A stretch of DNA of 54,238 bases from contig JALGZR010000047.1 of NCBI GenBank assembly GCA_025774805.1, positions 1 through 54,238 of the forward strand. Direction: 5' to 3'. Shown here piece by piece: positions 4,391-9,600 of the stretch (the first letter of the stretch is position 1; each line of letters begins with the position of its first letter). The notes beneath the pieces were generated by a model. It worked only from the letters and a program-made list of their open reading frames with translations. It did no database searches and was not told where the DNA came from. This DNA is from a bacterium. GTDB lineage: Bacteria; ARS69. Both the position numbers and the translations under genes were made by a program.

Positions 4391-4437
4391 AGCCGCCACG
4401 GGAGCGGAAGCTCTTCACGTGACCGGGGCGGCCCCGG
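4391..4437. repeat. Partner copy of the repeat at 3446-3490
   Basis: This ~47-bp stretch overlaps the 3' end of the minus-strand ABC gene and is nearly identical to 3446-3490, which covers the last codons of the CoA-transferase. It shows that sequence was exchanged or duplicated between the two gene ends. Confidence 0.6.
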
Positions 4438-6349
4438 GACTCACCAGCGTCCCCCCGGGGGCCCGCGACCGCGTCCGCCACAGCCCCTCGGTCCGCGCCG
4501 AGTCGCGGAGGCTCTGCTGCACGTAGAGGTCGAAGTACCGTCCGCGAAGCGCGAGCAGCTCTTCGTGGCTTCCCTCCTCCGCGATCTTCCCGTCCACGAT
4601 CACGACGATGCGATCGGCCGCCCGGATGGTCGAGAGCCGGTGGGCGATCACGAAGCTCGTACGTCCCTCGAGCACGCGGGCGAGACCCCGCTGGATTCTC
4701 CGCTCCGTTTCGGTATCGATCGACGACGTCGCCTCGTCCATCACGAGGATCTTCGGCTCGGCCAGAATCGCCCGGGCGAACGACACGAGCTGCTTCTGCC
4801 CCGTGGACAGACGATTCCCGTTCTCGCCCACCTGGGTCCGATAGCCGTCCTCGAGGCCCTGGATGAACTCGTGGGCGTCGACGACTTCCGCCGCCCGCTC
4901 GATCTCCCGATCCGTCGCCTTCAGTCGCCCGTAGCGGATGTTCTCCGCCACGGTCCCGCTGAAGAGGTGCGGGGTCTGGAGCACGATGCCGAGGTTCGAC
5001 TGGAGCCAGTGGAGGCCCCGCTTCCGGTAGTCGGTGCCGTCGATCCGGACCTCTCCGGAGGTCGGCTCGTAGAACCGGCAGAGCAGGCTCACGATCGTGG
5101 ACTTGCCGCCGCCGGTCGGTCCGACGAGGGCGATCGTCTCTCCCGAATCGACGGTCAGATCGAATCCGTCCAGGACCCGTGTCCCCTCGGCGTAAGCGAA
5201 CTGCACGTCGCGGAACTCGATCGTTCCGATCGTGTCGGGGCCGCCGTCCTCCGCGACCGCGGTCGCGGCCGGCAGGGAGGGGGATTCCGTGCGATGAGCG
5301 GACAGGAGCGCTCTCACCGCCTCGGAATCCCGGATCTCCGGCTCCGCCTCCACCAGACCGAGGATGCGCTCCGCCGACGCCTGCGCCATCTGCATCTCGG
5401 TGAACCAGTACGCCATCTCCTGGATCGGGTCGAAGAAGTGCCGCGTGTACGTCAGGAACGCGACGAGAGTTCCCAGAGTGATTCTCCCCGTCGTCACCTC
5501 CAGGCCGCCCGCCGCGAGCGCGAGACCCGTGGCCAGGCTTCCCAGCGTGAGAACGAGGGGAAGGTAGAGGGCGGAGTGCAGCGCGTTCCTCACCGACGCC
5601 GCGTACATCTCGCCGGACAGGTCGCGGAAGTCCTCGAGGTCGTGCCTCTCACGCACGAACACCTTGGTCGTGCGGACGCCCATGATGGCCTCGTTGAAGA
5701 ACGCCGTGATCCTGGAGTTCGTCTTCCGGACGACCCTCGAGCTGGCGAGGATGCGTCTCTGGAAGAACACGCTCATGCCGGCGAGGACGGGAATCACCGC
5801 CAACACGATCCCCGCGAGGCGCGCGTCCAGAACGAGCATCACCACGGCGATGCCCGCCATCAACGTCACCCCCCAGAAGAAGTCGAGCACGCCCCAGGCC
5901 ATGATCATCGAGAGTCGCTCGCAGTCGGAGGTCATCCGGGCCATGAGCCAGCCCACCGGTCGATGGTCGAAGAACGAGAACGAGAGCCGCTGCAGGTTCT
6001 CGAACCCGGCCCGGCGGATGTCGTGACTCACGTGGGTGCGGATGATCCCCCCGAGATGGACGAAGATCCCCACGCAGCCGCTGAGCGCGACCGTGAGGAG
6101 CGCGTACGCGGCCGCGTAGGGGAGGATCTCGGCCTCCCGCCCCCGAGCCACGACGTCGTCGATCAGACGACGGGTCACCAGGGGGAAAGCCGTGTCGACG
6201 ATGGCGAGAGCGATCGCCGAGGCGACCAGTCCGGCCACGTGTCGCCGGTACGGACGCGTGTACCCGAACAGCTTGCGCCACAGACCGAGATCGAGACCCC
6301 GCGCGTACGTCTCTTCCGCCGGTCCCCGTGCCGGCTTCGCTTCGGTCAT
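4415..6349 (-). CDS. ABC exporter half-transporter with the consensus ATP site (TM288/BmrD-like)
   Basis: A 644-aa type IV ABC exporter subunit: N-terminal cytosolic arm, six-helix transmembrane domain (about residues 40-340), then a nucleotide-binding domain. Walker A is GPTGGGKST at ~410-418. The signature is LSTGQ rather than LSGGQ. Walker B is LVMDEATS with the catalytic Glu at 539, and the H-loop is IAHRLSTIRAA. The intact Glu makes this the catalytically competent half; its odd LSTGQ would complete the degenerate site of the partner encoded at 7446-9284. The ATG at 6349 was chosen because it overlaps the GNAT gene's stop (ATGA). Likely role: heterodimeric export of a drug, lipid or peptide from the cytosol; substrate unknown. 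Confidence 0.9.
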   Translation of the reverse strand: MTEAKPARGPAEETYARGLDLGLWRKLFGYTRPYRRHVAGLVASAIALAIVDTAFPLVTRRLIDDVVARGREAEILPYAAAYALLTVALSGCVGIFVHLGGIIRTHVSHDIRRAGFENLQRLSFSFFDHRPVGWLMARMTSDCERLSMIMAWGVLDFFWGVTLMAGIAVVMLVLDARLAGIVLAVIPVLAGMSVFFQRRILASSRVVRKTNSRITAFFNEAIMGVRTTKVFVRERHDLEDFRDLSGEMYAASVRNALHSALYLPLVLTLGSLATGLALAAGGLEVTTGRITLGTLVAFLTYTRHFFDPIQEMAYWFTEMQMAQASAERILGLVEAEPEIRDSEAVRALLSAHRTESPSLPAATAVAEDGGPDTIGTIEFRDVQFAYAEGTRVLDGFDLTVDSGETIALVGPTGGGKSTIVSLLCRFYEPTSGEVRIDGTDYRKRGLHWLQSNLGIVLQTPHLFSGTVAENIRYGRLKATDREIERAAEVVDAHEFIQGLEDGYRTQVGENGNRLSTGQKQLVSFARAILAEPKILVMDEATSSIDTETERRIQRGLARVLEGRTSFVIAHRLSTIRAADRIVVIVDGKIAEEGSHEELLALRGRYFDLYVQQSLRDSARTEGLWRTRSRAPGGTLVSPGAAPVT

Positions 6350-7449
6350 GAGATTTCCTCCCCCTCCGTCCTCACGTGATGCTCCGGAGGTGAAGACGGG
6401 ATCTCCGGGGACGCTTCCCGAAGCGTCTTCACGTACGCCTCGAGGCGCCGCGTCACCTTCATGCCCACCTTCTCGTAGAGGTCGGTCGCCCGTACTTCGC
6501 TCTCGGCGTCCACGCCGAGAGCGATCGACGGGAACCCCCGACGCCGGCACTCCTCGAACGCGTGAAGCAGAAGCGCCCGGGCGATGCCCCGCCGACGCCA
6601 GGGACCGAGCACGCCCAGCTCGGACACGTAGGCCTGATTCGGATCCGCGTCGTGGAAGGGCCACGTGAAGCAAATGCCCACGATCCGGTCTCCCTCGACG
6701 GCGGCGAAGAAGAGCGACGGGTCGAACCGCGGCTCCTCGTCGAGTCGCTGCCGGAATCGCCGGAGTCCCTCCCCGGGGGTGACCTCCGCGATTCCCCAGT
6801 GGTCGGAGAACGAGTCGCGCCGCACGGCGAAGAAGGCCGCCTCGTCCTCTCCGCGCACCAACGGCCGAACGGCGATCCCCGGAGGCCAGGACGCCGCCTC
6901 TCGCGTCCCGTCCAGGTCCATCTCCATCGAGTAGAACCGGCGCCGCATCTCGTACTTCCTCCGGCGAAGTCGACGGCGGAGGTCCTCGTCGCGCACGTCG
7001 ACGCCGGTGCGAAGACAGATCTCCCCGTCGGGAGGAGCCAGCGGGACGTGAGCCGCGGCCCGACGCTCCACCCAGGTCACGAGCGCTTCGCCCAAACCCC
7101 GTCCCCGGTGGTCGGGGTCCACGGCTCCTCCGTGGAAGGCCAGCAGCCGGTGGGCGCCGAAGTCGTAGACCTCGTCGTAACCGACGATCGCTCCGTCGGG
7201 CGACACGATGGCGATCGCCCCGTCCCGCAGATCGAACACCGGGTCCTCCCACTCCCGCCGGGTCATCTCGGGACCACTCTCCTCCCGTCCCCCGTAGGCG
7301 CGGGCGCACGCGTTCAGCAGCGGCGCGACCTCCTCCGCGTCCTCGGGACGCAGCCCCCGGAACGCGTAGCCGGCGGAAAGGCTCAGCCCCTCGACGAAGT
7401 CGGTCGCCCTCACCGGCCGATTCGCCTTCATTTCGGGATGCGGGCTCAT
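6346..7449 (-). CDS. Tandem GNAT-domain acetyltransferase (mycothiol-synthase-like architecture)
   Basis: A 367-aa cytosolic protein with two GNAT folds. The first (about 30-190) has a weak acetyl-CoA loop, DPDHRGRGLGEALV. The second (about 195-345) has a good one, LGPWRRRGIARALL, followed by the typical DAES..ATDLYEKVGM end. Two GNAT domains in one chain is the layout of mycothiol synthase MshD and of several antibiotic or small-molecule N-acetyltransferases, but mycothiol itself is not implied. The gene lies between the two halves of an ABC exporter and overlaps both by 4 bp (ATGA), so all three are translationally coupled. A plausible inference is that it acetylates the exporter's substrate, for self-resistance or maturation. 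Confidence 0.8.
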   Translation of the reverse strand: MSPHPEMKANRPVRATDFVEGLSLSAGYAFRGLRPEDAEEVAPLLNACARAYGGREESGPEMTRREWEDPVFDLRDGAIAIVSPDGAIVGYDEVYDFGAHRLLAFHGGAVDPDHRGRGLGEALVTWVERRAAAHVPLAPPDGEICLRTGVDVRDEDLRRRLRRRKYEMRRRFYSMEMDLDGTREAASWPPGIAVRPLVRGEDEAAFFAVRRDSFSDHWGIAEVTPGEGLRRFRQRLDEEPRFDPSLFFAAVEGDRIVGICFTWPFHDADPNQAYVSELGVLGPWRRRGIARALLLHAFEECRRRGFPSIALGVDAESEVRATDLYEKVGMKVTRRLEAYVKTLREASPEIPSSPPEHHVRTEGEEIS

Positions 7450-9284
7450 CGCGTCTCCTCCCCCGTGCGGAGTCCGAGGTCCTCCTCGATTTCCTCCTCG
7501 AGCGTCCCCTGGATTTGCCAAAGCCTCCGGTACGGTCCCTCCGCTCGGGTGAGCTCTTCGTGGCTCCCCGACTGGACGATCCGTCCCTCCTCGAGCACGA
7601 GAATTCGATCCGCGTGCCGGATCGAGGAGAGGCGGTGCGCGATCAGGAGCGTCGTGTGCCGCCCCTGCCGCCGGCGAAGCGCGTCGAGGATCCCTGCTTC
7701 CGTCTGCGTGTCGACGGCGCTCAGTGCGTCGTCGAGCACGAGGATCGGCGGGTCCTTGAGAAGCGCCCGAGCGAGCGCGACCCGCTGGCGTTGCCCCCCG
7801 GAGAGCGTGACTCCCCGCTCGCCGACGAGTGTCTCGTACCCCTGCTCGAACTCTTCGATCGCCTCGTGGACGCTCGCCGCCGAGGCCGACTCCACGATCT
7901 CCTCGTGACTCGCCTCCGGTCGACCCACCCGCACGTTCGCGGAGAGGGTCTTGGAGTAGAGAAACGGCTCCTGCAACACCACCCCGATCTGCGCGCGAAC
8001 CTGCTTCCGACCCAGCGTCGAGAGCTCGCGACCGTCGAGACGGATGGACCCCTCCTCGTAGTCGTAGAGTCGGAGGAGGAGCTGGATCAGCGTCGACTTC
8101 CCCGCGCCCGGCGGCCCCACGAGGGCTAGGGTCTGCCCCCTCTCCACGCGAAACGACACGTTTCGGAGAACCGGCTCCGTCTCCCCGAATCCGAACGTGA
8201 GCCCCTCGACCTCGATCTCGCCCCGCAGGCGCGGCGCGTCGCCCTCCGGGACCACGGGGGGGTCCGTCTCCTCGGGCGTGCTCAGGATCTCGCGCAGTCG
8301 GTCGAGCGCCACGAGGGCCTTGCCGGTGTCGGTCAGCAGGCGTCCCATGTGGCGCACCGGCCAGATCACGAGGTTCTCGTACAGCAGGAACGCGAAGAGG
8401 GTCCCCACCGTGATCTCGGCGCGCTGCACCGCGATCGCCCCGTAGACGAGAAGCAACCCGATCTGTCCGACGCAAAGCAGGTCGGACAAGGCCCAGTAGT
8501 TGCCCAGCAGCCGGATCAGTGCGTGGTTCCGATCGCGAAACTCACGATTTCTCTCGGCGAATCTCGCGCACTCGAATTCCTGCCGGGCGAATGCGCGGAC
8601 CACGCGGATTCCCGTCAGATTTTCCTGGAGAACCGCGGTCATCTTGCCCTCCGCCTCGTCGGTCGCCCGAAAGAGACGCTGGACTCTCCGAAAGAAGAGA
8701 ATCGCAAAGGCGATGATCACCGGGAAAAGCGCCAGCGACACGACGGTCATCCGGACGTCGAGGGCGATGAGAATCGGCAGAACGGTCAGCAAGAGCAGGA
8801 GCGCCCGACCGATCTCCACCACCTGTCCCGCGAGGAACACGCGGATCGTCTCGACGTCGGAGGTGCAGCGCTGGACGAGGTCGCCGGTCTCCGCCCGGTC
8901 GTGGAACGAGCAGGGAAGGTGCTGGAGGTGCCCGAGCACGCGGTCGCGGATTCCCCGCACGATGGCCTCGGACGCGATGGCGGCCCAGCGCCCTCGCAGA
9001 TAGAGGAGCCCTCCGCCGAGCGCGGTGAGGGTGAACCCCGCCGCCGCCGCGGTCGCCAGCACTCGGAAGGGAGTCGTGTTCCCGGCCAGAGCCAGAAGCA
9101 TCCGTCCCGCGATCCCGTCGGGATTCGGCGCCTCGCCCAGGAGGAAGTCGATGACGGTCTTCGACACCAGGGGCACCCCGAACAGGAACAGGTTCGAGAG
9201 CCCCATGGCGAGAATCGCTGCCCCGTAGCGCGCGCGCTGGCCGCGGGTCAGCGCCCAGAGGGTTTGGTATTTCGCGAGATTCAC
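7446..9284 (-). CDS. ABC exporter half-transporter with the degenerate ATP site (TM287/BmrC-like)
   Basis: A 612-aa exporter subunit with six transmembrane helices (about 15-320) and a nucleotide-binding domain. Walker A is GPPGAGKST at ~390. The signature is canonical LSGGQRQR. Walker B is ILVLDDALS, where the catalytic Glu position is Asp519, and the H-loop is IAHRLSSIR. Replacement of the Glu by Asp is the hallmark of the degenerate site in heterodimeric exporters such as TM287/288 and BmrCD. Combined with the Glu-containing partner at 4415-6349 this predicts an asymmetric heterodimer. It is the first gene of a three-gene overlapping operon, 48 nt after a terminator-like hairpin and downstream of a short leader ORF, which suggests attenuation control. 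Confidence 0.9.
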   Translation of the reverse strand: MNLAKYQTLWALTRGQRARYGAAILAMGLSNLFLFGVPLVSKTVIDFLLGEAPNPDGIAGRMLLALAGNTTPFRVLATAAAAGFTLTALGGGLLYLRGRWAAIASEAIVRGIRDRVLGHLQHLPCSFHDRAETGDLVQRCTSDVETIRVFLAGQVVEIGRALLLLLTVLPILIALDVRMTVVSLALFPVIIAFAILFFRRVQRLFRATDEAEGKMTAVLQENLTGIRVVRAFARQEFECARFAERNREFRDRNHALIRLLGNYWALSDLLCVGQIGLLLVYGAIAVQRAEITVGTLFAFLLYENLVIWPVRHMGRLLTDTGKALVALDRLREILSTPEETDPPVVPEGDAPRLRGEIEVEGLTFGFGETEPVLRNVSFRVERGQTLALVGPPGAGKSTLIQLLLRLYDYEEGSIRLDGRELSTLGRKQVRAQIGVVLQEPFLYSKTLSANVRVGRPEASHEEIVESASAASVHEAIEEFEQGYETLVGERGVTLSGGQRQRVALARALLKDPPILVLDDALSAVDTQTEAGILDALRRRQGRHTTLLIAHRLSSIRHADRILVLEEGRIVQSGSHEELTRAEGPYRRLWQIQGTLEEEIEEDLGLRTGEETR

Positions 9285-9335
9285 GGCCCGTGGCCTCCGT
9301 TTCGCCCCCGGTCCCCGAAGCGCGCTTCGACGAAA

Positions 9336-9362
9336 ACGCCCGCTCAGCGGGAGAGCGGGCGT
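9336..9362 (-). terminator. Intrinsic terminator/attenuator in the leader of the ABC operon
   Basis: On the minus strand a perfect 10-bp stem (ACGCCCGCTC / GAGCGGGCGT) with a 7-nt loop is followed by a short U run (GCGTTTTCG). It sits 52 nt before the first ABC gene and after the leader ORF. It must be read through for exporter expression. Confidence 0.7.
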
Positions 9363-9384
9363 CCTCGGATGGGGCTTGAAACGG

Positions 9385-9417
9385 AGGAAGCCCGCTCGAC
9401 TCGCGAGCGGGCTTCCT
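9385..9417 (-). promoter_or_regulatory. Upstream hairpin able to pair alternatively with the terminator
   Basis: A perfect 14-bp stem with a 5-nt loop. Its second arm contains GAGCGGGC and the next hairpin's first arm contains GCCCGCTC, so the two can form an 8-bp anti-terminator helix instead of the two local stems. A further small hairpin (CCGGCC/GGCCGG, 9427-9444) lies between it and the leader ORF stop. Confidence 0.6.
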
Positions 9418-9456
9418 GCGGTCCCCCCGGCCGCGGAAGGCCGGAGCGGACGACGA

Positions 9457-9519
9457 TCAGGCGCTCGCTCGCAAGCGGTCGACGTTGCCGACCGGATCGA
9501 GAACGATTCGCCGAATCAT
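9457..9519 (-). CDS. Candidate 20-aa leader peptide of the ABC operon
   Basis: A short ORF that starts MIRRIVLD and ends DRLRASA, read from an ATG with a strong GGGAGGT Shine-Dalgarno about 5 nt upstream. It follows a good promoter (9572-9600) by roughly 45 nt and ends 40 nt before the paired hairpins. Four Arg and three Val codons are present, but there is no long run of a single amino acid. The layout (promoter, small ORF, competing hairpins, terminator, exporter) matches translation-dependent attenuation, as known for the bmrB leader of Bacillus bmrCD. That parallel is from literature knowledge; activity here is inferred. Confidence 0.5.
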   Translation of the reverse strand: MIRRIVLDPVGNVDRLRASA

Positions 9520-9571
9520 CAAGACCTCCCGGACGAAGGGCAGCGCGGCCGTCCGCCGCACCGATCGAGAG

Positions 9572-9600
9572 AATATAGCCGATCGTTTCCGGGGGCGCAA
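9572..9600 (-). promoter_or_regulatory. Sigma-70-like promoter of the leader/ABC operon
   Basis: Reading the minus strand: TTGCGC, a 17-nt spacer, then TATATT. Five of six bases of the -10 match TATAAT. It faces the leader ORF and lies just upstream of it, beyond the end of the membrane-protein gene at 9614. Confidence 0.6.

Follow-up and report, generated by a model that had tools for sequence, protein, structure and literature searches.

The leader that precedes an ABC exporter operon on the minus strand of the window (the whole 54,238-nt stretch of DNA analysed here) most probably represents a ribosome-mediated transcription attenuator, in which two tandem terminators (T1 and T2) are combined with five alternating complementary strands, named A to E. 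In the sequence these strands are present, mutually complementary and recurring in relatives. The leader is well supported as a sequence element; its operation as a switch is predicted, and we infer both the response to drugs and the termination.

Reading in the direction of transcription (all features of the window are on the minus strand), the leader begins with the promoter-like site TTGCGC-17-TATATT (9572–9600), whose −35 (TTGCGC, 9600–9595) and −10 (TATATT, 9577–9572) elements are separated by a 17-nt spacer; a generic promoter scan gave this site no score because TTGCGC deviates from the E. coli consensus. A Shine-Dalgarno sequence, GGGAGGT (9524–9530), and a leader ORF of 20 codons plus stop, MIRRIVLDPVGNVDRLRASA, follow, the latter extending from the ATG at 9519 to the TGA at 9457 (9457–9519). 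The end of the ORF holds segment A, or anti-T1 (9458–9475; CUUGCGAGCGAGCGCCUG), which is complementary to the 5′ arm of T1. Enclosed between A and B, a small GC-rich hairpin (9419–9443) is indicated by folding. Hairpin T1 (9385–9417; −27.8 kcal/mol) starts 39 nt past the stop codon and consists of 14 bp closed by the loop CGAGT, its arms AGGAAGCCCGCTCG/CGAGCGGGCTTCCT being strands B (9417–9404) and C (9398–9385). Finally, T2 (9331–9362, with the hairpin at 9362–9336; −20.5 kcal/mol) has 10 bp, a 7-nt loop and a TTTTCG tail, and its arms ACGCCCGCTC/GAGCGGGCGT are strands D (9362–9353) and E (9345–9336). An intrinsic terminator with a U-tract, T2, thus lies ahead of the exporter, together with the weakly terminator-like T1, whose status as a terminator is less certain since it carries only a weak T-run (CCGTTTC). 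The promoter, the 20-codon ORF with its strong Shine-Dalgarno sequence, the small hairpin, the 14-bp and 10-bp hairpins and the TTTTCG tail had all been named in the original prediction, and each of them is found in the minus-strand sequence where it had been placed. The complementary core that it ascribed to the T1 3′ arm and the T2 5′ arm (GAGCGGGC/GCCCGCTC) is real, and the possible anti-terminator that it proposed is supported by the pairing of C with D; the more telling pairing of A with B had escaped it. The gene upstream of the leader (10711–9614) codes for a protein of 365 aa which is hydrophobic by eye and matches no Pfam or NCBIfam family.

The operon comprises the first exporter subunit (7446–9284; 612 aa, GTG start at 9284, Pfam PF00664 and PF00005), a double GNAT acetyltransferase gene which overlaps both exporter genes (6346–7449; PF00583), and the second exporter subunit (4415–6349; 644 aa from the ATG at 6349), in this order and with overlapping start and stop codons. 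The exporter had been described as asymmetric, and this is borne out: Asp replaces the catalytic Glu after Walker B in the window's first subunit and in all first subunits readable by motif search (53/53), while the window's second subunit has the canonical Walker-B Glu, which assigns the predicted proteins to the class of asymmetric heterodimers with one degenerate nucleotide site. In relatives, including those of the same phylum, the two subunits are directly adjacent, without an acetyltransferase between them; therefore, the acetyltransferase represents an insertion in the window's lineage. It may modify the exported compound.

The folding of the window leader is far stronger than that of dinucleotide shuffles (z −5.2). 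The 5.1-Mb genome contains the palindrome CCCGCTC-N3-12-GAGCGGG at just 8 sites, two of which, T1 and T2, lie 52 bp apart. The C:D duplex of the window amounts to −17.9 kcal/mol, and 21 other terminator-like hairpins from this genome all pair less well with the T1 3′ arm than does the 5′ arm of T2. This specificity extends to other loci: among 11 representatives, C:D pairing is stronger within loci (−13.9 kcal/mol) than between loci (−8.4 kcal/mol; 0/100,000 permutations), and when other terminators of the same genomes replace the locus's own D as the partner of C, only 1 of 87 is as good. Altogether, the layout of the leader ahead of the exporter does not appear to be a chance arrangement.

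The second pairing, between the end of the leader ORF and the T1 5′ arm, gives an A:B duplex of −21.3 kcal/mol in the window. Compared with shuffles, p is 0.07 for duplex energy and 0.04 for ensemble folding, so that the support from the window alone is modest; in G004, a relative from the same phylum, the corresponding values are 0.008 and 0.007. Over 17 representatives, A:B pairing exceeds that of shuffles with Fisher values of 4e-9 (duplex energy) and 1.5e-5 (ensemble folding), and in the shuffle tests of L092, L040 and L078 it is not significant. Segment A overlaps the leader stop codon in L079, L072, L078 and G004. In several Bacillota leaders it is read as Thr-Arg-Pro-Val (ACN CGN CCT GTG), and these residues recur in otherwise unlike leaders because the A segment of the RNA encodes them. 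The leader ORFs of L117, L118 and L119 are about 70 codons long, and L118, as compared with L117, lacks one base close to the 3′ end, which shifts the stop codon while the RNA segment is kept.

Conservation inside the phylum was analysed in five genomes, four of which contain the exporter. In two of these (G001 and G003) the contig ends before the exporter 5′ end, which leaves G004, belonging to another genus and having an exporter 65% identical to that of the window, as the sole relative in the phylum with a readable upstream region. A DNA search with the leader likewise gave only G004 as an informative match, the remaining matches being short and GC-rich. The G004 unit consists of a promoter-like TTGCGC-17-TATCTT at the same relative place as in the window, the Shine-Dalgarno sequence AGGAGAG, the ORF MFIRLTDKVPGNTGHD, a comparable enclosed hairpin (CUGGCGAUAGAGCCAG), and T1 and T2 sharing a CCCGCTC core, followed by the exporter. 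The leader layout is kept although the upstream neighbour gene differs between the two genomes. In the alignment of the two leaders, identity gathers in five blocks, namely GAGCGAG in the last part of the leader ORF and each arm of T1 and of T2. The leader stop codon is shifted relative to segment A between G004 and the window, in agreement with selection on the RNA rather than on the peptide.

The distribution of the element was then examined across phyla. Protein searches in about 1,440 genomes yielded 55 usable exporter upstream regions, mainly from Planctomycetota and Bacillota, to which we applied an automatic rule requiring a short ORF with a Shine-Dalgarno sequence that ends 5–70 nt before T1, two tandem terminators, and a duplex of at most −9 kcal/mol between the T1 3′ arm and the T2 5′ arm. 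The rule was passed by 19/55 exporter upstream regions, among them those of the window and G004. In contrast, it was passed by 0/260 control genes, which came from the window and from 20 genome stretches, mostly of the same genomes, and were treated identically; against the 126 controls that have an intergenic gap, the Fisher test gives 1e-11. The original prediction was to be checked through the conservation of the ORF and of the alternative helices among relatives, and such conservation is found both in these counts and in the promoter, Shine-Dalgarno sequence, ORF, hairpins and core that G004 keeps. More generally, a leader ORF followed by one or two terminators is frequent upstream of these exporters. 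Labels assigned by hand for the tree, which include cases missed by the automatic rule (n = 56), give 24 loci with tandem terminators, 7 with a single terminator, 3 unclear and 22 without, so that in about 22 of the 56 neither a leader nor a terminator is visible. In the tree, the deepest split of the family separates two clades that both contain the element: it is nearly universal in one, made up mainly of Bacillota, and patchy in the other, which consists mainly of Planctomycetota and includes the window. A single old origin followed by losses and several independent gains would both fit this distribution. The window leader, which had been suggested as a possible independent example of leader-peptide attenuation in a distant phylum, is thus upheld as a putative attenuator of this kind, but it would be one member of a type spread over the exporter family rather than a lone case.

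These comparisons also bear on two readings that we considered and dropped. According to the first, the leader is a chance look-alike produced by high GC content and common terminator motifs. Although GC-rich DNA folds readily and CCCGCTC is also used by several Planctomycetota terminators, the absence of passing control genes in mostly the same genomes, together with the rarity of the palindrome, makes such an origin extremely improbable; moreover, the two terminators of one locus mostly share one core, and while GC-rich genomes use CCCGCTC/GAGCGGG, the same logic is realised in low-GC Bacillota with the cores CCACAGG/CCTGTGG, CCATAGG or CTGCGG. The second reading holds that the leader is a stand-alone small gene or sRNA closed by an ordinary double terminator, with the exporter served by its own promoter or by low read-through. 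Indeed, T1 and T2 would work as a back-to-back terminator. On the other hand, just 46 nt separate the T2 tail from the exporter start in the window (17–57 nt in many Bacillota), and this interval holds no promoter-like site; furthermore, the association of leader and exporter persists across phyla while the neighbours change, the small ORF shows no conservation at the protein level, and the cross-pairing of T1 and T2 is specific. A stand-alone gene is consequently quite unlikely.

The arrangement of the five strands suggests how the attenuator would work. Transcription would start a few bases beyond 9572, where the −10 box ends. A ribosome reaching the leader stop codon would cover A, so that B:C (T1) and D:E (T2) could form and RNA polymerase would halt before the exporter. 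If elongation were blocked early in the leader, A would be free and, emerging before C, would pair with B; C would then take D, E and the U-tract would be left single-stranded, T2 could not form, and the exporter-acetyltransferase-exporter operon would be transcribed. The timing step, namely the formation of A:B before C is made, is a point that we infer. The leader would thus serve as a gauge of ribosome position, in which the RNA of the last codons is conserved and the peptide is not. Indeed, leader peptides are poorly conserved and differ between loci, and in leader pairs nonsynonymous codon changes outnumber synonymous ones; the peptide pattern gives no proof of translation.

The dependence on ribosome position was simulated by folding the RNA 3′ of a ribosome placed at successive leader codons. 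In the window, the T1 5′ arm is paired with A with a probability of 0.78 for early ribosomes and of 0.06–0.12 when the ribosome is at the end of the ORF; for the window, G004 and L072 taken together, A:B pairing lies at 0.8–0.9 with early ribosomes and does not exceed 0.12 once the ribosome is at the end of the ORF. For an early ribosome and a completed T2, most of the window RNA is still in the terminator state at equilibrium (B:C 0.76, C:D 0.20), and therefore read-through would have to rest on the co-transcriptional order of folding. Equilibrium folding gives no switch at all in L072, L085, L092 and L108, and C:D at every ribosome position in G004, L047, L097 and L115. An energetically favoured terminator state is shared with the bmrB leader of B. 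subtilis, whose authors found the anti-terminator less favourable than the terminator (PMC4191407).

As to the signal, a ribosome-targeting drug expelled by the exporter is the likely candidate, considering the analogy with bmrCD and the fact that no leader contains a run of a control codon. Sensing of amino-acid supply, as in attenuators of the trp, his or ilv kind, had been put forward as another option and finds no support: the general anatomy (leader ORF, alternative hairpins, terminator) is shared, but control-codon runs are absent from the window, G004 and the other leaders, the peptides vary from locus to locus, and the gene under control is an exporter. We consider this reading very improbable and dropped it as well. 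A closer variant keeps the same ribosome-controlled attenuator and differs in the trigger, which would be drug-dependent arrest at a nascent-peptide motif (e.g., the macrolide motif R/K-X-R/K) and not a general slowing. In its favour, [KR]X[KR] occurs in 17/29 leader peptides against 9.9 expected from shuffles (p = 0.001), in a count that ignores kinship and includes close kin (L108/L109, L120–L122, L043/L070), and the window peptide itself contains RLR. However, this RLR lies within segment A, where a stalled ribosome would cover A and favour termination, and the G004 leader lacks the motif. Motif-specific arrest is therefore rather unlikely as the trigger, and a general slowing of the ribosome by a drug remains the preferred reading. 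Separately, Ile is the second residue in 13/29 leader peptides, a set that includes the window, and could form with [KR]X[KR] a macrolide-arrest signature; this count, too, ignores kinship.

The closest known system is the bmrB-bmrCD operon of B. subtilis, a leader-ORF attenuator induced by chloramphenicol, erythromycin and lincomycin, for which leader translation is required (PMC4191407). Both systems place a leader ORF before a heterodimeric ABC exporter and oppose an intrinsic terminator to an alternative anti-terminator. However, bmrB is 162 nt long and carries a single terminator, located within the ORF, together with an anti-terminator and an anti-anti-terminator whose role is unclear (PMC4191407), whereas the window ORF has 20 codons, both hairpins lie past its stop codon, and the first of them also resembles a terminator and shares its core with the second. 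The exporters differ as well: among solved structures, the first subunit of the window scores 339 bits with Sav1866, 308 with TM288 and 283–286 with BmrC, so that BmrC/BmrD are not the closest. With trp-type leader-peptide attenuators the window would share the choice between mutually exclusive hairpins by ribosome position, but it has no control codons, and its two terminators and five strands contrast with the single terminator and four strands of the trp type. A study on premature terminators describes a rimP-leader with two tandem terminators, a potential anti-terminator and inverse motifs in the two hairpins (PMC2965389); the first two features resemble those of the window, while the gene is another one, the hairpin motifs are inverse, and the passage concerned mentions no leader peptide. 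In the same computational analysis, attenuators are predicted to be common ahead of ABC transporter genes (the ABC-leaders, 205 candidates), and the passages on them mention no class with leader ORF, tandem terminators and cross-pairing (PMC2965389). In the open-access papers searched, we found no prior description of tandem cross-pairing terminators with an anti-T1 segment at the leader end, or of their spread over this exporter family. That a heterodimeric ABC exporter can be controlled by leader-peptide attenuation is known from bmrB-bmrCD; what appears to be new is that the terminator is doubled, that an anti-T1 segment lies where the ORF ends, and that the arrangement is spread over phyla.

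It is fairly likely that these leaders form a previously undescribed, widespread class of attenuators, a domino switch of five near-identical alternating strands in which the last leader codons set the register of two serial terminators and one stalled ribosome disarms both. The switch would be tied to a single asymmetric ABC exporter family across Bacillota, Planctomycetota and the phylum of the window, and a gammaproteobacterial MAG gives hints of it as well. With such a compact design, the ribosome-sensed control of multidrug exporters, which experiments have demonstrated in one Bacillus operon, would extend to a family of exporters from uncultured and little-studied phyla. A further prediction is that the compounds expelled by these exporters target the ribosome, which would help to narrow down the substrates of transporters not yet characterised. 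An Rfam search with the window and the leaders of ten loci gave no relevant family at gathering score. At one locus of a Bacillota MAG (L047, 7409–7593, plus strand), a lysine riboswitch is located 3′ of the exporter operon.
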